A stretch of DNA of 64,000 bases from Coemansia sp. RSA 487 (lineage: Eukaryota; Kickxellomycota; Kickxellomycetes; Kickxellales; Kickxellaceae). Of the stretch, positions 19,924-37,264 are shown piece after piece. The notes under the pieces were generated by a model. That model worked only from the letters and a program-made list of their open reading frames with translations. It ran no database searches and was not told where the DNA came from. The stretch's first letter is position 1; the number at the start of each line of letters is the position of its first letter. Where the stretch lies: the NCBI GenBank assembly GCA_027577595.1, contig JANBRJ010000048.1, positions 62,001 to 126,000 on the forward strand, given 5' to 3'. Position numbers and translations under genes: made by a program.

Positions 19924-22296
19924 CTAGATTGCAAACTTTGCGTGGCCAAATGAGAAGGGCACGGGCGACGGCAGCTGTGCAATCAGGATCTCCTGGAACG
20001 TTGCTGCGTCAAGCACAAGGAGGCAGCTGGCGATGCGCATGCTGTCAAAGAACACAGTGACCACGTACCCGTCGTCCTCCTTGTCGCTGCTGCGCGGGAC
20101 AAACACAGGCTCTGACGGGTGGCAATGCTTGCGCGACCATACCTTCGGTGCCTCGGTAGCGTCGGCGATATTCAGCTTGACCAGGCAGTTATACACGGTC
20201 GATCCAGCCGCCTGCGCGTAGGTCGGCGACCCTGGCCCCGCATCCGCGCCACGCAAGCGGTCGACATGGCTGACGCCGTACACGTACGTGTACCTTTTCC
20301 CAGAGAACGCTGGACCGATGCACGCGAGCTCCGCCGGCTCGCTGCGCAGAACCATCGGCAGTGCGGGCGGGATGTTTGCCAGCTGCGCTCCAGAGATATA
20401 GCGCTGCGCCTCCATCGTAACCCTTTGGAGCTGGTAACGCCTGATCTGTGCCGATGGGATCGCAAAGCCCGCATTGGCTTTGCGTAAGCTGTCGATGCGC
20501 AAACGCCGTAGGATCGTGTCGTCTTCATAGGCAATGCAGTCGATCGACACAGAGTCTGCTGCCGTCTCCTGCACAGCATTGATCTGGTGCAGCGCAAAAA
20601 ACGCAGGCGCCTTGTACGCGCAGTGCACGCGGCGGTACTCGCGGCTGATCACATAGAACAGCACATATTGCGAGCGGTCAAACTCCAGTGTCTCCAACAG
20701 AGAGTCGCTCCATCTGTATCCGGGTCCACCAACAGGTACTTCGTACGGGTATACAGGAACAATTATGTAGTCCTGGGTGATCGAAAAGCTGTGCAGCACG
20801 GATGCCTGTGCCGAAAATGTGGCCACCACGTATCCATTGGGATGTGCCTCGCTGATGGATACCACCGAGTACGTTGTTGAGCGGAACCCGACGTCTTGGA
20901 GCACAGTAAAGTGCTCGCGCGTGTCTGAGTCGTACTGCATGTGTGGGCTGCTCAGCGTGCATGCAAATGCTTTGTTGATGGCCTTGGTTTCGACAACTGC
21001 GCGTGGACGGAGATCGACAGGGTCGATGTTCTGCAGGGCACCCGTGTGGTTCGTGCAAACAATGTTCTGGCTCGACCCTTGCAGCGGGACAAAGAGCTGG
21101 ACGCTCTGGCTGCAACAGTCGCCCTCGGCGGTCGGGTGGTACGTCGGTCTGGGGATGAACTTTGTCAGCACGGTCTGGTTCGAGTCTGACATGTACAGCG
21201 AGCCCGGGTGCTTTGCATTGATCCCATGCTCGGATTGGATGCGGCCGGCCATGTGCTTGGCAATCAGGCGCGAGCGGTGGACGATGGTTTTGGCGTTTGG
21301 ATCAAAGGTGATCTTTGTGAGCAGCGGCAGTGCGTCCATCAGGTTCCCGAACGTGAACACCCGCGTCGACTGCTCAAGCTCGCCCTGCACGTTGTAGCTG
21401 ATGTCGAACCGTCCGGGCCCCACCATCACCAGGCTGCCGCGCAGCCCATCAGGGAAGCTGCCATTAAGCACACGCAGCTCGATCGGGTTGGGCGACTCGC
21501 GCGCGTTGTACAGCCCGCTGCGCATCGTCTCCATCTCTTCTGGCGAAACACACTTTTGCGCAAGCTGCTCCTTCTGCAGGCGCCGCTGCTCAGCCAGGCG
21601 GAAGCGCCGCCGGTTCTCCTCTTCTTGTGCCTCAAACGGATCGTCTTCCTCGGATTCGCTGACCTCTGCGATATCCGAGCGATTGGCTGGTGCCGTTCCC
21701 GGTGTTCTGTGGCTACCTTGGTTTGTCACCGATATCCTGCCGGCGGTGCTTTCAAAAGACACCCTCTTTGGCGTCGATACTGACGATGATGGACCCACGT
21801 CGTGCTCGCTGTCCTGCAGCGGATGCGATGTTGCTGGTAATTTGGACGACGTACGCATAATGCTGATTGCGTTTGGCGATAGCGGCCGCCTTCCCGGCGA
21901 ACGAGGAGCATCCTGTTTAGTGCCCTGGGCAGGGGTGTCGTCAGACGATACTTTTGTCCTTGGATTTGAATCTCCGCTGTTGCCTTCGGAAATATCTACC
22001 TCCTGCAATCCATCGGCAAGCATGCTATCAATTTGGCCCCTTTGATTCTTGGTGCTGCTGGTGTTGCTGGTGTCGCTCTTAGCACCAGTGTCCTTTTCGA
22101 CATTTGGAGTGCTGCCGGGCTCTGCTGCGACTGCGTCGTCGTTAGAAACCGCACCGTCTTTGGGGCTCTCCTTGGTACTGTCATCTGCTGGCGGAGCAGT
22201 ACTCACCTGTTGCTGTGTCTGTTCGCTTTCCGTGCTCTGCTCCACGCTTTCTTTCGCAGCCGAGCTGGCTGCCTTTGTTGGCTTTTTTCTGACCAT
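19924..22296 (-). CDS. carotenoid-cleavage-oxygenase family protein with long disordered N-terminus
   Basis: 790 residues. The first ~250 are low complexity (Ser, Thr, Glu, Gln, Asp; several acidic clusters such as SESEEDDPFEAQEEE). From about 255 the seven-bladed RPE65/CCD fold follows: NGSFPDGLRGSLVMVGPGRFD, KITFDPNAKTIVHRSRLIA, SPHMQYDSDTREHF, and near the end HCHPSEPVFVP then VPFSFGHAKF. Candidate iron-ligand histidines sit in the SPHMQYD, LHSFSI/ALHQ and final FGHAKF blocks. Usual members have PFGFHG at the last position, so the geometry may differ. Family members cleave carotenoids or stilbenes with non-haem Fe(II). Substrate and activity unproven. Confidence 0.8.
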   Translation of the reverse strand: MVRKKPTKAASSAAKESVEQSTESEQTQQQVSTAPPADDSTKESPKDGAVSNDDAVAAEPGSTPNVEKDTGAKSDTSNTSSTKNQRGQIDSMLADGLQEVDISEGNSGDSNPRTKVSSDDTPAQGTKQDAPRSPGRRPLSPNAISIMRTSSKLPATSHPLQDSEHDVGPSSSVSTPKRVSFESTAGRISVTNQGSHRTPGTAPANRSDIAEVSESEEDDPFEAQEEENRRRFRLAEQRRLQKEQLAQKCVSPEEMETMRSGLYNARESPNPIELRVLNGSFPDGLRGSLVMVGPGRFDISYNVQGELEQSTRVFTFGNLMDALPLLTKITFDPNAKTIVHRSRLIAKHMAGRIQSEHGINAKHPGSLYMSDSNQTVLTKFIPRPTYHPTAEGDCCSQSVQLFVPLQGSSQNIVCTNHTGALQNIDPVDLRPRAVVETKAINKAFACTLSSPHMQYDSDTREHFTVLQDVGFRSTTYSVVSISEAHPNGYVVATFSAQASVLHSFSITQDYIIVPVYPYEVPVGGPGYRWSDSLLETLEFDRSQYVLFYVISREYRRVHCAYKAPAFFALHQINAVQETAADSVSIDCIAYEDDTILRRLRIDSLRKANAGFAIPSAQIRRYQLQRVTMEAQRYISGAQLANIPPALPMVLRSEPAELACIGPAFSGKRYTYVYGVSHVDRLRGADAGPGSPTYAQAAGSTVYNCLVKLNIADATEAPKVWSRKHCHPSEPVFVPRSSDKEDDGYVVTVFFDSMRIASCLLVLDAATFQEILIAQLPSPVPFSFGHAKFAI

Positions 22297-22758
22297 TTGA
22301 AGCCACTGTTTGTCAAATTATTATACGTATTTATAGAGACAAAGCTGATAACAAACTCTGCTTCAAACAAATTTTTTATGGTAAAAGTATAGAAATTGAC
22401 AACCAGAAAACAAATAGAAAAGAAAACAAAGTAGCTAAAAAATCGAAGAAAAACGTCAGTGAACCACACTTGCATGCATGTGTTTGTTGAGCATAGTTTT
22501 CAGTCATCCTGTGTTTCAATGGCTGATGCTGCTGCGAGATACTCTGGACAGAGAGTGTGGCTGGCTCGATTTAGCTCTTGTGCTTAAGCGATCAAGGTCA
22601 AACAGCAACACCATTCGTCAGCGGTCACGAAAAGCATGTTTGCTTTCAAAATCCCACTGCTAGTATCACGAAACCTTTCTCTTTCCCGACTGCGCAAAAT
22701 AAAATTACCTTTTTTGTTGTTGCAATTCAAACTAGAAAAGCACTCGCCAGAACAAAAC
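22297..22758. promoter_or_regulatory. divergent oxygenase/MCM8 promoter region
   Basis: 462 bp between two outward-facing starts. An in-frame ATG at 22636 precedes the chosen MCM8 start, but the 41 residues it would add are basic and serine-rich and not conserved in type. No clear regulatory motif. Confidence 0.4.
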
Positions 22759-26793: not shown

Positions 26794-29700
26794 TGTTCAG
26801 GTGCTTTTATTTTCGTGTGCTCGCAAGCCCATGCAAACCGTCTGCGACACGCCAAGCCCTTTTGTTCAGCTTTATTCGCAGTAATTAAAGGGGTAATAAA
26901 GCAGAATAATAGCAGAGACGAAAAGGAAAGAGAAAAGTGGCGAAATCTGCGTTTACAAGATAAAATAAAGTCTTAAACGGGCTGGCAAGGTTGGTGAGAG
27001 CGTAATCCAAGCTGACGACAAAGGTGGCCTTTGGTAATTGAAAAACACACTACCTATTGTCTTTAGAATAGCAGTAACAACAAAAGATGCGACAAACATG
27101 TACTGCTGGCTGATTTCTGCTAGAATGCAGTAAAAGTCGAGCTCATAAATTGCAAGTAAGGAGCACAAGCTTTGAAGGGGTATAACAATGGTCGGGAAAA
27201 TATATGGCCAACTGTCCGAAATGGGTGCTGTGGAGGAAAAAGAGGGAGGAGAGGGATTGCTTGTCAGCCGAACGCAGCCAAGAAAATAAGAATAGAGAAT
27301 TGGCCAGCCGAAATAGCAATTAAGTGTAGGAGTGACTAGATAAACAATAAAACACTAACATTTGGTATAAAAAGGAAGCAAACGGGCGCGGCAGCCAGAG
27401 CCCCAGCCATTTTGAAATTTCGGAGGGCACTAGTCATCGTGCATATTATGGGCAATGTGTCCAATGGCATATTTTCATCTATTGATATGGGCTCTTTCAT
27501 GCTATTCGGCTTTTTTGTCGTAACATTTCGATATGGCAAAAGTGCTTGTCTGGACATGCCGAGCAAGAATGACAACAGGCAAGCAGGAGGGGATAAACGA
27601 CATTGTTGTTGTTGCTGTCCTCTCCTCCCCTTTTTTCAGCCTTTAGTGTTCTTTCAGAACCAAAAGCAGACAATGAGGCAATTCGTGACCAGCAAACATC
27701 TGGTGAGCAACAAACACAGTAGGAAAACAAACGGCACGGCGGTTTCTTTCTAGTAGAAGCTGCAGAGTCGTCCGAAATGCATGTGTGGTGCCTACAAAGC
27801 GCGTAGGTCTCTGATTCACATCGGCTGCCACGGACTTGACATTTTCTGCTAGATGATGCCATGTGCCTTTTTATTCTGCTTACTTTGTATGATATTGGAT
27901 CTACGAAGATGGAGGCGTCGCATACACATGCCTGTATATACATGTCTGTATACTGGGTATTGGGTGCTGGAATTTCCATTGTACTTGGTCAAGTGGATGC
28001 CAAACAAGCTTGTGGTTTAGCACAAGCAAAAGAGACGCGACATGTCATAGCAACAAACACGAGAGACAGGCTACGTACCAAGAAGAAGGATATATTCAAG
28101 AACTATGGCCATTCAGCAATGTGCCTTGGTGTGGAGGAGGGAGGGCTGAAGACATGTGGCTCTGCTATTTTTCGAGTAGGAAAAAGGGCCGAGCACCATC
28201 GCAAAAATGAGCAACCACCTTGTCAGCATTTGAGGACATGTTAATCTGTCTGTTAGTGGCTGCCCAAACAGGAATTGGCAATGCGCATTGGATGTCAGCA
28301 GACGCTGGGCCACATTTATATTTCTTTGAGAAATCCTACAATATTTGCCACTCATTTCTGTATACCACATGCAGCGTGCTGCGTGTCTCTGCTGCCGCCT
28401 TTGCGCTTTGCCGCGTGCGTGTGGCTAAATCATTATTTTTTCGCATTCTTTTCCGAATGGCCATGTTGGCTTGGCTCTGTGTCCAAAGCAGCACTGTCAC
28501 TCGTCTGCGAATCATACCAAAAACCCCTGTTGAAAAAGAGGGAGAGATTTGTCCACCAAACTGAGCAGGTTAATTGACAAAAAATGAAATCTCTCTTTGC
28601 TTCTCTCTTTTCTCATCTTGGCACTTTCTGCTGCTCCATCGGCCAACCCACATACTCTATACAATCTGATGCGCTTCCTTTTTGTCTTCTAAACATCCAA
28701 CCAGCATAGTTATTAATCTGTTTATTTTTATGAACTCTTCAGGCTTTTAATTCTGTTCTAGGTATCTGTTGTATTTACTTATATCATCGGGTATTTCCTT
28801 CTTTCCTTTTTATAGCTAGGCGACTGTGCTCTCAGTTGGCTTGTCGTTCCTTGTCCAACATTTTTCGGTAAAAAAAAGCTTTACGATACTCTTATTTTTT
28901 GTTCCTTTTGTGGGGACGACTACTTTTTTCTTCTTTTTCGTGACCAAAAAAGGGTCTTGTGAGCCATCGCCTTTTTTAGCTCCCTTTTATCAATCGGCAG
29001 TAACAGCAGAAGCCTCTTTGCCTTTTCGCTTGCTCTCCGTATCTGGGGAGACGCCTTTTTTTATACGTTCTAGCTCTGGGATTCAAGGGTCCCACCACTC
29101 CCATCTGTCAACTGCTGCCGTCTTTAATTCCGGACATCCAGAAACAACAGAACGGCTGTAGTGTTCAGGCTTTCTTAATTTTTCCTCATCTCTTGCGTCT
29201 TTCCCCCCTTATTTTCATATTTTGCGTTTTATATACCAGGCCCTTTTCTTTTTTTTTGTAAGAATCTACTCCATTCATATCTCTGGCCACTCTCTGTCCG
29301 GCTCACAAACAACACCCACCTACCAGCATAAACTATAACGGTGCTCTGCAAGCATTTCTTGCAGGTGAGGATCAAAAACAAAGCATTCACAGCTCTGTCA
29401 CAACCTTGTGTTGTTTTTTTTTCTCTATCACACGTCCTGCGCCGCCTCTTGCTTCTGCATTCTGTAGAAAAGAAAAAGTCTGCAAGTGTGCTTGCAGCTC
29501 AGCAGGCTTCTAGACCAGTCTACTCAGCCCATTTTTGGCCACTTGCTGCTTTTTGTGCAGGAGACGAAAGCTAAAACCAAGCAGCAGGCTTTTGGTTCTC
29601 TCCACTTACATCGACCCAAGCTTTCCAGCACCCTGGGATCTGCCTCCGCTAAAAAAGACCACAAGCCTGGCCAGACCACAGAATCCAACAAAAAGGAAAA

Positions 29701-29958
29701 GGAGTATTATCGCTTCCTGGCTATCTCTCTAGCCTGCAAGAAAAAGGGAAAAGAGCTGCTTTGTCAAGCCATCTTTTTTGGCTCTCAGTTTTATTGGGCT
29801 CAAAGCCCCTGGAATCGCATAAATAATCGCATTTCCGTTTCAAACTTTCTTGCTCTTATTTTTTTATCTCTCCTGCTCTCCTCTTTACTTTATTATTCTT
29901 ATTCATCCATCTCCTCCTTTTATCCCCCTTTATCTATATCCCCTGACTTTGTTCTTTG
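26794..29958. other. 3.2-kb non-coding region between NEM1 and the REC-PDE gene
   Basis: Both flanking genes point away, so this is a shared upstream region. It is unusually long for this compact locus. The last ~1.2 kb (28700-29950) is rich in T/C tracts, typical of a long fungal promoter and 5' leader. No domain, tRNA or repeat was recognised; several short open frames look like chance. Confidence 0.4.
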
Positions 29959-32900
29959 ATGAGGTTCAGCAGCGTCATCCGGGGCCGCAACGGCTCTGGA
30001 AGTAAAGGCGGCGATCGTGCCAAAGCGTCGCCAGTACCAAAAACGCAGCCTCCGCCAACATCAGGGCAATTATCAAAAATTGAAGCAGTAGTGCCGTCAT
30101 CTACTACAAAGGCGGCATCGCCCCGCAATCTCAGCTCCAGCACCGCCGTTACAAACAACACATCCACAGTCGCGCCAATGCACATGTCGCCTAGCAGTTG
30201 CACAGTTCTGATCGTCGACAAGCGGTTTCTGAAGGGTGTCTACTACACAGCGTCGTCGGGAAGCCCAACGATGCGTGGTGGCCCAGCTCTCGACGATGTT
30301 GTGTTTGTGCAAGAGCTTTTAGAGATATATGGACAAGGTATGTTGCCAGAAACATTGCGGACACGCAATAATAGCTATGGCCAATTTTTTGCATGTTGTC
30401 GAGGAAGGAATGGTTTTTTTGATTTCTTGTGCTCGACTGGCTGCGTTGGATTGCTTGTGCGCATATGGAACAAGCTTGTTACCTTAGCCACAGGAAAAGG
30501 GGAATGAGGCTAAGAAAGCACAGTATATACAGTGCAGCTTTGTATTGGCTTGCCATCTTTGGTCTAGAGCGCTCCTCTGATTTGGCCGCTGCCGCTGTTA
30601 CCCAATAATCCAGCTGCCCCTCCCGCTGCCTGCCCTTGTGCTCTTATTTGCCGTAGAAGCGGGTTGGCTACGTCAATGTGCATTTTTGAAAGTCAGTTTT
30701 TACGTTGAGCTGAGCCATTTCGTTGTTTTTCTTTGTATTTCTGCTCTGGACGATGTAGTTGTGGCGGTGTTGTCTGGAGACACGGCATTGCGATGGATCT
30801 TTAACCACACGGGAAACAAAGCAATTATCGTTCTAATCGACGTGGACGAGACGTATAATCGCGACAAAGACGACGATGACAGTGGCAAAGACAGTCTGTT
30901 CTGTGGCCCCATCTACACACCCCCCTCCAGCCCCCAGGATCACCAGCAGCAGCAGCAGCACCATAGTAGCCAGTGCCGTCAGCGGGATTCTGGCGTTGAC
31001 AAGGATGTCTCTGAATCGCAGGATTCAGGGCCGTATGGTCTTGCACTGCTGCGCGTCATCGCACACTACGTGGCTATCGGCGTGTTCCGAAATGTTGCTC
31101 CTATAGGTAAGCAAGGCAGAATGAGCAATTCTTCTCCCATGCCACACACGCGTGTGGCGCGTACCATTCACTTTCTCACCGCGCACAAGCGCAGCGGTGC
31201 CATTTCTCTTTGCCTCCATGTATGTCTTTCCGTGTTCTATCCGAGTGGATGATGTCCAGTGTGTGTCGTAAATGGCTACACCAACACTTGCGCAGATTGT
31301 GGGCAAACAAAAGCAATAGCAGTAATGTGCTCAAGTAAGCCACAGGAAAATGCACGGCATCAAGCCCCAGCGGCTGCTTCTAACAAGATGCCGGGCAATT
31401 ATGCGCACATACATGCGCCGCACTCAGTCGAACGTTTCTCTCGCCATAACCGGGCCTTGTGTTCAGAACACAGAACCAGCTCTTGGCGCCATTCTATTCT
31501 ATTTTTGTTCCCATGGGTGTGGTGTCATTATGCGTCCGGTTCTAAAACATGCGCACTCTTCCTGCTACAGCCATTCGTCCATTATTCACCTGCCCCGGCC
31601 AATACCTCATCAATAGTGCTTTCCTGCTTTCCTGCTTTCCTGCTTTCCATCTGCGCCATAAACGGGAGCCGATTCTCTCCTCTGCCCACGGGCGGGTTGG
31701 CCTCTGAATTGATCAAGGACAGCTTTGTCTGGCGCAGGCAGGACAGAAACAATGCACAACATTGCAAAGATTTTTTTACTGCCTCCGAAGCCAAGAGCAA
31801 AAAAGAAAAAGCCACAGGCTACTGAGCAGGAAGCGCTGAGTGTGAACGCAGAGCATATTTCGCTCCACAATGTCAAAGCACAGAATGTCGCCATTTACTT
31901 TGCATGAGCCGTGCTGCAATCCGATTTCCTTGATCTACATATCCCACATACACAGAATGTCTGGTTCACTGCAGAGCATCGCCACCACACTGCGAAATCC
32001 ACTGCCCTTTTATTACGGGCTTTTTTTTTTTTGCCAAACACTGGTTTTCTTTTTCTTTCTGCGTGAATCCTTGTTGAAGCATATGATCTCGAGTTACAAA
32101 GCCTGCTGTTTCTTTCTTTGTGCCAGGCCAACCTTAAATTCCCGCAAAAAGCTACAAGCAGAAATCCCGACTTTTCCTCCAAACATCGATAGCTCCTCTC
32201 GCCACCATCCACCACACTGGCAATGCTCCTGCAGGCAAATCCTGTTTTCTTTCTCCGGCGGCGCTTGCGATCGGCGCTGCCACTCCTACATATTCATACA
32301 TGTCTGCTCTCTTTATTTTTCAGTCTCGCTTTGCGCTTTAATGGAACGCTAATTGGACATTGCATTTCAATAGCTGCTCCTCGCTTGTGCTCACACTGGA
32401 ACTGGACGCAAATCGCGCTTGAGCTTTTGTTGTGTCTGGATGTCCCTTTGCTGCTTTCATTATACAATTGAGAACCGCTTTGAATCCATCCTTTTCTGGT
32501 TACGCCAAACAAGTGTCATCTTTCAGACATCCTATTGTCTTTACGAGCGGATGTCTTGCTAAAATGGTTAGCTACCTTATCCTGCTCGCTCTTTGTCCAG
32601 CAAAAGCGCCGTTCTCTCCTCCACTTGCGCATTGATGCGGAAAACAGAGGCTTATCTGACACCAACTCACCACACCCAAGGTTTGGCTTGTGGTTGTTTT
32701 CTTTGTTTTGAGAACGGCCGCAGAGGCACATGCTCCTATTATTTGCCGAAACATAGCGACGCCTCCATTTTCACCTGGATGCATGCATATATAGAGTGCG
32801 GGGGTCAAACAAAAAAATAGAGGCGTCTTTCTTTTGGCTTGGTTTCTTTGCCGCTTGTGCCAATTGCCCTTTGTCCAAAAAAGAAGGCGGGATTGTGACA

Positions 32901-35470
32901 GCTATTTACTCCTAAAGAACCCATCCTCTCTTTGTACCGTTTTTGGAGTGGGAATATGCACTTTATCCATTCCCAGCAAAAAAAAAATAAATGTCTTGCC
33001 TTTTTTGATGACGGTATTTCTTGCCGTCGTATAAATAATGCCTGTCTGTCATACCTTCTGCGCACGCTTGTTTCCCCCCGCCACAAAACAAACCTTCTTG
33101 CAAGCGCTTTCACAATACGTAACCAAACGATTTTCTTTGTGTTCTTCTGTAACTAATCGGGCCAGCTCTGCTTCCGTTGTCTCCTACTCTTTTTGCTCTT
33201 GTTTTATCCTATCTCATATATATACTACCTATTGCGTGAACAAACGCTTTCACGCCAACACCACAACGCCCCCGCCTGATCGCTCCGCTTCAACAACATT
33301 TGACATGGCATCCGCACAACTGGCACCATCGGTTTCGCACAACCTGCGGAATCCAATTCTCGACCGTGCTCGCGACGCCGACCCACTTCTCTCCTACTAC
33401 AAACGCCGGAACTCTGTCCACAACATCAACTACGCGCACTCTATTCGTGCAACCCGCACACAACCGCATCCCAGCGCATCGCAATCTGTAGCAATGAGCT
33501 CGTCGCACGACCCAAACTTTATGCGCCAGGCTGCTGGCATTGGTGCCATGAACTACCTTGTAAAGCCGATATCCGCGGAAACAGTTCACAGTTTGTGGCT
33601 CAATGTCTTTTCGTGTCGCACGCACAACCAGACAACTGCAGCCGTTGCTGCTGCTGCTGTCGCGCGGAGAAGCGTCAGCGGGATGACCATCGACGATAGG
33701 GCCTCACAGACAGCAAACAGCGCAGCCTTGCTTGCGCATAACGAGAGCTGCGGCGATGCCAGTACGCTCTCTCCACAGCAGTCGATATTCCAGCGGCGGA
33801 TACGCACAGACACAATCAACGGCGCTTCCACGGCTGACGCCCGCAACGCCTCTTTTGAAGAAGACTTTATTCGGCAGTTTGTCCCAGCCATCTCGTCCAC
33901 GCTGCCAACAACCAGCGCCAGTGGCGGGGCTGACGACTATCTCGACGACTGCAACGAGGAACTTGAGCACGAGTTTATGACTAGCTCGCGCATCGAGAAT
34001 TTGCGCATGCACCTGCTGGACTGGTCATTCTGCCCCTACGAGATGGACAGCCAGGATCTGATTGACTGCATCGTGATCATGATCATGGATAGCGCCGCCT
34101 GCGTCGACTTGAAGCTGCGGATAAGCCGTGTGCGCAAGTTTGCGTCGATTCTAGAGTCCGCGTACTACGACAACCCTTACCACAACTTCCACCACGCAGT
34201 CGACGTTACCCAGTGCACGTTCTACATCCTGCACACGCTCGGCCTGTTCAGCAAATCGGGCTACAGACGGTCGTCACTCCGCTCGCCGGCAGACGCGTCG
34301 TTCCCGCTGCGCAGCATCCTCCGCCCAACAGACACAATTGCACTTGTTGTCGCGTCCCTCTGCCACGACCTTGGCCATCCTGGGCTCAACAACGCCTTTA
34401 TGGTTCGCGCCCATACCCAGCTGGCGGAGGTATACAACGACCAGTCCGTGCTGGAGAACTTCCACGCTGCCTGCTTCTCGATGATAATGTCGTACTTCTT
34501 TGCCGACTTTGGCTTCTCGAACGGCGCATGCTCCGAAGACGAAGGCGCAAGAGATCCTGCCAATCCTTCCGCCGCACCGCCAAACCACTTTTTGTTTGAC
34601 TACGAGGAGTTCCGGCGGGTAGCCGTCCACGCAATCCTGGCAACCGATATGGCACGGCATTTTGAGTTTATCGGCAAGTGCAAGGCGCAGCACGAGCGGT
34701 TCAAGTCCAGATCGAACCTGCCGATGACACTGCAGCAGCATGAGGCCGAGAGGGCGCAGCTGGCTGCCAGCATCCTCAAGTGCGCAGATATCAGCAATAT
34801 TGTCCGGCCATTCAACATCTCGCAGCGCTGGACACGCAGGCTTAACAAGGAGGTCACGCTCCAGGGCAACATCGAGGAGTCCCTTGGAATGTCGCGCACC
34901 ATGGTTGTCGATATGGAGAACGTGCCTACGTCGCAGATTGCCTTTTACGAGACCTGCGGACGGCCGTTGTTCAACGCCGTTGCCGATCTTGTCCCGGAGC
35001 TGCGGTTCATGGCCGACCAGCTGGAGAACAACATCCGCAACTGGGGCTTTATCAAAAACAACCAGCGCGTGCCTGAAGTCCCGTACGGGCTCAAGCACTC
35101 GTCGACCTTTGAGCTCAGCATCAGCACACGCGCCGGCTCGACGGACTCTGCGCCTGACTTTCTCCAAAAGCGCTCGTATGCAACAAGCAGCATTGCGCCA
35201 GCGGCAAGTGTTCCGTTCGACATATCGACCACCACGGTAGAGAACGAGCATCTGGCTTCCTACACACTCCACGCCAGCGACAGCATCGATAGAATGGCTA
35301 CCGGTGATGATCTTTCCGCAACGACACGGCAGGTGCTATCATCTCACGACAGCAGCGACAGTGGCAAATTGGTAGCAGATGGGCTGCTAGCAAACGACAG
35401 TTCTCTAGAAATGCCTGCTCATTTGTATGTTTCCACAGGCGTACTTTCTCCCTCGCAGAGCCAGCACTGA
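29959..35470 (+). CDS. response-regulator receiver fused to cAMP phosphodiesterase (RegA-like)
   Basis: Modelled exons 29959-30337, 30759-31106 and 33492-35470 (introns of 421 and 2385 bp; donors GTATGT and GTAAGC, acceptors TGTAG). All phases agree, giving 901 residues. After a disordered start, a receiver domain spans exons 1-3: TVLIVDKRF (strand 1), VVAVLSGDTALRWI, the phospho-acceptor-like aspartate in VLIDVD, a ~70-residue acidic/poly-Gln insert, GLALLRVI, then MSSSHDP and GAMNYLVKPIS with the conserved lysine. Class I phosphodiesterase motifs follow from about 470: HNFHHAVDVTQ, CHDLGHPGLNN, ILATDMARH, ILKCADISN. The layout matches Dictyostelium RegA, in which a phosphorelay activates cAMP hydrolysis. 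The strand-1 acidic pair is reduced, so phospho-control is uncertain. Confidence 0.8.
31107..33491 (+). other. 2.4-kb intron with a possible internal start for a short PDE isoform
   Basis: This intron interrupts the receiver domain and is by far the longest modelled here. Most of it lacks coding character and is T/C-rich. Its last part is different: from the ATG at 33305 a frame runs without a stop into exon 3 (33305-35470, 721 residues), with good codon use and the phosphorylation-like RRNSVHN. A second promoter inside the intron could therefore make a phosphodiesterase without the first two thirds of the receiver. Alternatively, two genes overlap here. Confidence 0.5.
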
Positions 35471-36103
35471 ATCTCCTCCAGCTAAACAAAAGACAACAAA
35501 ACAAAAGACGACAACACAAGCTGTGTGCTGCTGTCTCTCTTTTGTCTTTATATTATTCCTCTTCCCCTTCTCTCCTGCTGAGCTCTGTACACTTCTTTTC
35601 CTTTCCTTATCCTGCCTGCTATCATGCGCGCGACGGGGTTCACACATCCTCTATGTGGCTGGATTAAAACGTAGCAAGCAAGGGAGAGAGAGGACTTGCT
35701 TAGTGGCAAGAAGGATGAAAAAGGGAGAGACTCCCTCCTCCTTTACTCGGACAAGTTGTTGCAACACATGTACATTTTTTTACAAGCAACATCCAGACAC
35801 GTATAAAAAAAGGTCCCTTGCAAGCAGCAATATTTTAACTACTCTCCCCTCTGGCATCGCAGCAAAAACATTTCGTTAGGCATTATTCCTTCAACATTTA
35901 CATTTATTTTAAACTATTTCTTTACGTCGTTTCTCCTTTTCTTTTAATGTTCTATCAAAGTACATTTTCTTTTTCCTGTTGTTAACATGTTTCAAAAAGT
36001 TAAAATAATATATCCCTGCGAGCTGTGTCTTAAAAACATTTGGAGCCCCACACAATATTTATGTCGTTTACAGATAAATAAACACTTTCTCAATGGTTGA
36101 TAC
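35471..36103. other. convergent 3' flanks, no gene seen
   Basis: 633 bp between the converging REC-PDE and EMC2 genes. T/C-rich, then AT-rich with AATAAA-like signals near 36073. Nothing coding. Confidence 0.45.
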
Positions 36104-37264
36104 TCAAAGCTTGAGCCATGCTTCCAATGTCTTTTTCATCGCATTGCTGGATCCAGAGTAAATAGCGAGAAGTCGTTCGGTGGCGAGCTGCGATAAGCGC
36201 TCAAGTGTGGCCTTCTGCGGGGCGTTATCGATCTTGAACTGGTGGCTAGAGCCTTTAGATTTGCCCGACGCACGCGAGGAGATATCCAGGATGCGATCGG
36301 CGGTGAGTTTGACACCGTAGAAGCCGCGCACGTTGTCTGTGGATAGCTCGACAACACGCAGGTACTCTTTGAGCGCAATATCAAGGTTGCCCATGGTGTA
36401 GCTGATCTCTGCGTAGCATAGGTGGAAGTAGTGGTTAGCCGGCTGTTGCAAGATGACCTCCTCGACACAGAATGCAGCTTGCGAGTAGAGATGTTGGTCC
36501 ATGTAGAGGTGCATGAGTTCCAGCCACGCTTCAAAGTCGTTTCCATGCGTGTCTAGATAGGAGACCAGTTCCTGGATCGCCTGGACATTCTGGCCTTGCG
36601 ATTTGAGCAACGCAATGAGCCGCTTGTTTGCAAGCACGTTGGTTGCGTCCTTTTCGAGCATCTCGTCGTACAGCTGCTTGGCCTCATCTGGGTGCCCGGT
36701 GGCCTCGCTGACTAACCCATATAGCCGCTTGACGCGCTGGGACTCTTCCCCAAATCGACTGTGTAATATCGCCAAAACTGCCTATCCAATACATAACGCA
36801 ACAGAAGATATAAGCTGTGTTGTCGGTTCAATATATACAATGGTGCTTGCTGTCGATGCTAACTAGACAGCAGTAAAAGAGTTTAATGTGCTTTTTTTGT
36901 ACCTTTGCAACATCGATCTGGCCCTCGTCAATGGCAGCGAGAAACACCTGCTCGTACACGAGCCACACTACAATAGAAATGGAACGTGAATAAACGTTAT
37001 CGTTGCTTTCCTCGCAATAAAGAAACACAAGGTCCAACGTTGCTGTGCATTCTTGTTAGTAAATTCAAAACTTTATTGTTCAGCGAGATGAAGAGACGGT
37101 TTAGCAAATGCAAGACATCGCTCCTTTTCTATAAACGTACCCTCATCGCCTGCTTGGGAAATTGCCCCTTTGTTGAGAAGCGGTTCCGAAAGCTTCAACA
37201 CCTCAAAGGGCCGACGTTCGGAGGACTGTCTTATTTCCGAGAGAAGCTTTAACGAAGCGCTCAT
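36104..37264 (-). CDS. EMC2: ER membrane protein complex subunit 2
   Basis: Three exons: 37264-37141, 36967-36903 and 36781-36104 (introns 173 and 121 bp; donors GTACGT and GTACAA, acceptors TGTAG and GATAG). Phases close exactly, giving 288 residues against 297 in human EMC2. The first splice creates AGDEVWLVYEQV, matching the conserved ..DIWIIYEQV block; the second joins DVAK to AVLAILHSRFG. TPR repeats fill the C-terminal two thirds (GNDFEAWLELMHLYMDQ). EMC2 is the cytosolic scaffold subunit of the EMC insertase, which places tail-anchored and multispanning proteins in the ER. Without the two upstream exons the protein would lack its first 62 residues. Confidence 0.92.

Follow-up and report, generated by a model that had tools for sequence, protein, structure and literature searches.

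Does the cyclic AMP (cAMP) phosphodiesterase (PDE) of an early-diverging fungus carry a receiver domain of the kind found in histidine phosphorelays, and if so, which signals would reach the enzyme through its N-terminus? The question is raised by a plus-strand gene at positions 29959-35470 of a 64,000-nucleotide stretch of the Coemansia sp. RSA 487 genome (assembly GCA_027577595.1, contig JANBRJ010000048.1, positions 62,001 to 126,000; hereafter the window, whose coordinates are used throughout). From its sequence, an original prediction had read a receiver followed by a class I PDE. The receiver-PDE fusion in the window is real. We consider it reasonably probable that the gene has two starts, giving a long form that faces a histidine phosphorelay and a short form that faces cAMP-dependent protein kinase (PKA), both being versions of a receiver-PDE inherited from early fungi.

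Results

The long form has 901 amino acids and is encoded by three exons, which in our splice model join in frame with no internal stop. Exon 1 (29959-30337) encodes a disordered N-terminus and then beta1-alpha1 of the receiver, where the motif VLIVD (residues 83-87) is followed by Lys88 in place of the second acid. After a GT-AG intron of 421 bp (30338-30758), exon 2 (30759-31106) supplies beta2-alpha2-beta3, an insert and alpha3, and holds the phospho-acceptor Asp154 of LIDVD (30839-30841) together with an Asp at D+2 (residue 156). Intron 2 (31107-33491; 2385 bp, GT-AG) leads to exon 3 (33492-35470), which adds beta4-alpha4-beta5-alpha5, with Ser245 (33497-33499) and Lys267 (33563-33565), and continues with a linker, the PDE and a tail. 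All five receiver motifs of the original prediction were found where it had them. The class I PDE domain (PF00233; residues 472-753, 34178-35023) is complete as claimed, the PDEase_I model matching over its full length (1-238 of 238, E 8.6e-63), and the RegA-like order of receiver and enzyme was borne out by Pfam and by an AlphaFold2 (AF2) model of the homologue P0002. The acidic, glutamine-rich insert behind the acceptor strand, first put at about 70 residues, counts 62 (residues 157-218, 30848-31033) and is a low-complexity stretch in the beta3-alpha3 loop. The exon joins, that of intron 1 included, fall at identical residues in three public Coemansia models (P0002, P0005 and P0007), and the receiver part encoded by exon 1 is present in these and in P0039. 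The best named matches of the window protein are from Coemansia species; in homologues from other genera, including Mycoemilia and Basidiobolus, the receiver is continuous with the PDE.

In regards to the receiver itself, the match to a receiver hidden Markov model that the original prediction expected failed in Pfam: PF00072 covered only residues 239-275 and stayed below threshold (E 0.071, 13.7 bits versus a cut-off of 30.2), and the half receiver of P0001, the database-listed protein of the window, was likewise sub-threshold (E 0.1). The expectation held with other methods, for which we used sequences hand-picked from the matches. There are 32 fungal rows, made up of 22 zygomycete-grade (Kickxellomycotina, Entomophthoromycotina, Mucoromycotina, Glomeromycotina and Calcarisporiella), nine ascomycete-type and one from Blastocladiomycota, and 19 other receiver-PDE rows, mostly metagenome proteins, which are "non-fungal" only in that 11 of the 11 placed on our tree lie outside the fungal PDE2 branch. 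An hhalign comparison of 20 of the 22 zygomycete-grade N-termini (without P0036 and P0044) with 18 of the 19 other receivers (without P0133) gave 99.4% and 4.8e-21, versus 0.1-3.1% for four reversed-sequence comparisons, which carry the weight here since one-against-one hhalign E-values are not calibrated on a database. A profile of 11 zygomycete-grade segments matched solved receivers (plant ARR1, 2.4e-10; CheY, 1.1e-4). The fold was examined on P0002, which is 72% identical to the window protein; its AF2 model, based on a 39-sequence alignment, has strands at 73-78, 120-124, 142-148, 218-224 and 242-245 with helices between them, and the mean predicted local distance difference test score of these blocks is mostly 86-94. 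Identity to P0002 reaches 31/32 in beta2-beta3, 22/23 in alpha3 and 39/44 in beta4-alpha5, so that the receiver exons are conserved like the enzyme (271/335), while the N-terminal tail (18/78) and the insert (27/62 over residues 159-220) are poorly conserved. A structure comparison with VIA-align returned a list filled by the PDE (residues 346-759). Because of the hhalign result, the profile matches to solved receivers and the AF2 fold, we accept the N-terminal part as a receiver despite the failed Pfam test taken alone.

In the active site of this receiver, the window protein keeps the acceptor Asp, the Ser and the Lys (D154, S245 and K267), which are found in 28 (Asp), 24 (Ser or Thr) and 22 (Lys) of the 32 fungal rows; the Lys is present in 22 of the 23 rows outside the ascomycete-type group and in none of the nine within it, and Ser/Thr is lost in five of those nine. 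The first beta1 acid occurs in 25/32 fungal rows, the second in 2/32 versus 17/19 of the other receiver-PDE rows. The acidic pair is thus reduced in the window (D87-K88), as had been noticed, and this is not a local feature. Conversely, an Asp at D+2 is found in 21 of 22 zygomycete-grade rows, one of nine ascomycete-type rows and not in the Blastocladiomycota row, versus 0/19 of the other rows, and P0040, the sole zygomycete-grade row without it, is also the sole one with the second beta1 acid. This pattern and its exception suggest that a metal-binding acid moved from the end of beta1 to D+2 rather than vanished, although the first beta1 acid is absent from 7 of the 22 zygomycete-grade rows, which speaks against such a shift. 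The Massospora copy P0044 has the acceptor Asp and the Lys, with Gln at the first acid and Ala at the Ser position.

The same counts bear on the main rival explanation, to which we give not quite an even chance, namely that the long-form receiver still folds for regulation or dimerisation but has ceased to be phosphorylated, a decay whose end point would be seen in the ascomycete enzymes. It would account for the second acid missing from 30 of the 32 fungal rows, for the sub-threshold Pfam match and for the loss of Lys in all ascomycete-type rows, the single modelled member of which still has the fold. It is harder to reconcile with the acceptor Asp, Ser and Lys being retained in 6/6 Kickxellomycotina rows, or with Asp and Lys both being retained in 21 of 22 zygomycete-grade rows and the D+2 Asp in as many.

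The proposed second start lies within intron 2. P0001 is a protein of 721 amino acids that begins at the ATG at 33305, and its alternative N-terminus of 62 residues (33305-33491), which did not figure in the original prediction, is continuous with exon 3. This short form is without beta1-alpha3, including the acceptor Asp, and retains beta4-alpha5. Its N-terminus carries RRNSV (33404-33418), a likely PKA site judging from the consensus RRxS-hydrophobic, which is confined to the short form and absent from exons 1-2. Eleven of the 25 models P0001-P0025 have an alternative N-terminus, three are long, and the remaining 11 start at beta4 or later or are partial; a search with the short N-terminus returned 23 proteins, that is the same 11, the three long ones and nine starting at beta4 or later. 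RR[NK]S occurs in 11/11 alternative N-termini, followed by V or I in eight and by T in three (RRKST), and no RRxS precedes beta4 in the three long models or in the long form of the window. The short N-termini, 25-63 residues long, are otherwise variable; a start of the form M-x-x-x-[QH]-[LIM] is common to seven of the 11, and the shared Ala is preceded by V in ten and by I in one, which is compatible with a TAG acceptor kept inside the codons. In the correct frame the short N-terminus had no Pfam match, and among the proteins compared the start with a PKA site was seen only in Kickxellales. With a codon score trained on exon 3, 33305-33490 obtained +0.057 (exon 1, -0.005; exon 2, +0.148), the other two frames of the segment -0.149 and -0.347, and the open frame directly upstream -0.393. 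The element TATATATA (33217-33224), 81-88 bp upstream of the alternative ATG, is a weak candidate for an internal promoter element. A further RRxS motif, RRSSL (34265-34279), belongs to both forms and lies within the catalytic domain, in an insert where 26/26 proteins (P0001-P0026) have RRxS[LM].

Several points weigh against a gene with a relay-facing long form and a PKA-facing short one. Besides the failed Pfam test, the second acid of the beta1 pair is a Lys, and the Pro at D+4 is absent. None of the stop-free windows of intron 2 (0/440 on the plus strand and 0/279 on the minus strand) reached +0.057, but this intron supplied both the codon background and the windows, so that its scores tend to come out low. 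The motif RRx[ST] is common, turning up in 4-13% of draws when each N-terminus is shuffled, and the 11 short-form proteins are related, so only the retention of RRxS counts. Finally, all short N-termini are gene predictions, and no single public model set examined has both forms for one species. That every short model is a prediction, and that the frame is open from 33035, would also be expected if gene callers had wrongly taken up 33305-33491 as part of the frame that is open ahead of exon 3, or else if this stretch were a cassette that splicing includes in the long form. We consider this unlikely, since the codon signal begins at the ATG and does not extend into the preceding open frame, and since RR[NK]S in all 11 short N-termini and the shared start in seven of them have been retained. 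Two separate or mis-joined genes, with exons 1-2 a relic or a short gene of their own and only the 721-residue PDE being made, are very improbable: intron 2 is long for a fungus, exons 1-2 are missing from 22 of the 25 Kickxellales models P0001-P0025 and the C. reversa model P0039 has them without the PDE, but they encode the beginning of a fold that exon 3 completes, they are joined to that exon in three public models, and in Mycoemilia and Basidiobolus the domain is continuous.

The fusion had been taken to suggest a direct two-component-to-cAMP route in this lineage, in contrast to well-studied fungal PDE2 enzymes without a receiver. A comparison with related fungi recovered it in multiple genera beyond Coemansia. 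The same domain order occurs in Mycoemilia, Dispira, Basidiobolus, Phycomyces, Absidia, Mucor, Rhizophagus and Calcarisporiella (species names being those of the match lists), and also in Catenaria, although its PDE is elsewhere on the tree. A lineage-specific fusion is thereby ruled out, and an architecture of long standing in fungi is the more plausible reading of the suggested route. In a tree computed rapidly from 54 PDE domains, without bootstrap, with no named animal PDE or amoebozoan RegA among its rows and with P0177 (insect PDE9A) and P0196 left out for want of the anchor pattern, 25 fungal PDE2 rows, ascomycetes and basidiomycetes included, form one branch (Shimodaira-Hasegawa-like approximate likelihood ratio test, SH-aLRT, 100); Blastocladiomycota rows fall elsewhere with weak support, and the outside placement of the fungal branch is weak as well. 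Judging from PF00233 and this tree, the window gene belongs to the high-affinity PDE2 enzymes of fungi, as their Kickxellales (Coemansia-type) representative. A degenerate receiver can be aligned in the nine ascomycete-type PDE2 rows (eight from named ascomycetes, and P0045). Their profile gives 98.7-99.1% with the zygomycete-grade set and 95.0% with other receivers, and the AF2 model of an ascomycete protein, from Lachnellula, has the five strands and the helices of the receiver fold; used alone, the profile did not match any solved receiver at the sequence level, its one match being unrelated (E 0.95). It is because of these profile, model and tree results that the contrast with a receiver-less PDE2 fails for ascomycetes. 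In the basidiomycete PDE2 P0054, no receiver was visible on reading of the sequence.

As for the surroundings, a known gene or RNA inside intron 2 was ruled out by searches in which none of the five open reading frames tested reached a Pfam cut-off (best sub-threshold E 0.062) and Rfam had no match within 28500-36500. The convergent neighbour (36107-36781, minus strand) is an EMC2-type tetratricopeptide repeat gene (PF22890, 8.8e-22), and further away, at 19927-22317 on the minus strand, lies a gene for an RPE65-family protein of the carotenoid oxygenase type (1.2e-64).

Discussion

The fusion, the fold, the conservation and the coding signal of the short N-terminus were obtained by computation, and we infer that both transcripts are made from a receiver-PDE that would have been inherited from early fungal evolution. 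The distal start would give the 901-residue form with a complete receiver, which the histidine phosphorelay could supply with a phosphoryl group, or with a docking partner, the resulting change being transmitted to the PDE; by analogy with RegA, HPt-dependent phosphorylation of Asp154 may alter the contact between receiver and PDE. The 721-residue form, in which the acceptor Asp is lost and RRNSV gained, would arise from the internal start within intron 2 (2.4 kb). PKA could then phosphorylate the Ser of RRNSV, probably activating cAMP breakdown and thereby providing negative feedback. Promoter choice would in this way set which input counts, relay control or PKA-feedback control of cAMP breakdown. 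The joint proposal, in which distal and internal promoters create two exclusive wirings and the shift of the metal acid to D+2 (DxD) also altered the metal chemistry, is more tentative, and we think it somewhat doubtful as a whole. Yeast Pde1 is unrelated to this enzyme. It nevertheless offers a precedent for feedback by PKA on cAMP breakdown in a fungus, since PKA acts as a positive regulator of this low-affinity PDE (PMC3479052).

HisKA and HPt (E 6.5e-5) are each matched once in the genome, which also contains three other receiver stretches at Pfam level, one of them within the open frame of the kinase; the count is a six-frame one on an assembly of 17.8 Mb in 184 contigs and may miss split genes. 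A phosphoryl donor chain therefore exists in principle. L009 (G000:C14) is a hybrid histidine kinase with an open frame of 5396 codons and, by eye, many similar HAMP-like repeats. A second gene for a class I PDE in this genome (L013, G000:C12, about 225579-226733, minus strand) has a catalytic domain matched in two pieces within one 780-residue open frame, indicating a long insert. Among the proteins compared, P0048 (857 amino acids) has precomputed PDE, receiver and HPt domains in one chain, in the order receiver-PDE-receiver-HPt on reading, a large part of a relay thus being attached to an enzyme of the RegA kind.

Should the two-start reading be correct, the fungal PDE2 family would consist of receiver-phosphodiesterases whose receiver decayed in Dikarya, early-diverging fungi would gain a direct and testable link from a histidine phosphorelay to cAMP, and promoter choice would swap one phospho-input for another on one enzyme. 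We found no description of a fungal receiver-PDE fusion or of the alternative start among the matches listed or in the portions of the open-access literature consulted; Table S4 of PMC8510515, on unclassified fungal response regulators with enzyme domains, may cover parts of it.

The closest known systems are three. With the fungal high-affinity PDE2 enzymes, the gene shares the branch mentioned above and a receiver fold, which is degenerate in the ascomycete model; it differs from the ascomycete-type enzymes in keeping the Lys and the Ser. The top Foldseek matches of both the P0002 and the Lachnellula models were 6cpt and 6cpu (yeast caPDE2, which we take to be that of Candida albicans), over 563-729 columns compared with about 345-430 for other PDE chains, at a root-mean-square deviation >15; 6cpt aligns with the P0002 model over 717 columns. 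This suggests that receiver and PDE both align to caPDE2, in one alignment that does not separate the receiver alone, and the full-length profile matches 6cpt only from chain residue 173 on. The caPDE2 structure paper may reportedly already describe the N-terminal domain.

Dictyostelium RegA likewise has an N-terminal receiver and a C-terminal class I cAMP PDE. It keeps the DD pair, in contrast to the window protein, whose second acid is a Lys, and like most of the other receiver-PDE rows. Its activation depends on RdeA, by way of which D212 becomes phosphorylated (PMC11988041), and RegA is also reported in Acanthamoeba, Naegleria and Physarum (PMC5055082, PMC4758236). The RegA descriptions consulted mention no short form with a PKA site. 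The two-start gene proposed here finds its nearest parallel in this respect in mammalian PDE4, where alternative promoters alter the regulatory N-terminus of a cAMP PDE with its upstream conserved region (UCR) modules, the PKA site being included in the choice. In PDE4, however, the PKA site belongs to the long form, whereas in the Coemansia gene it would be the short form that has this site, the receiver being carried by the long one.

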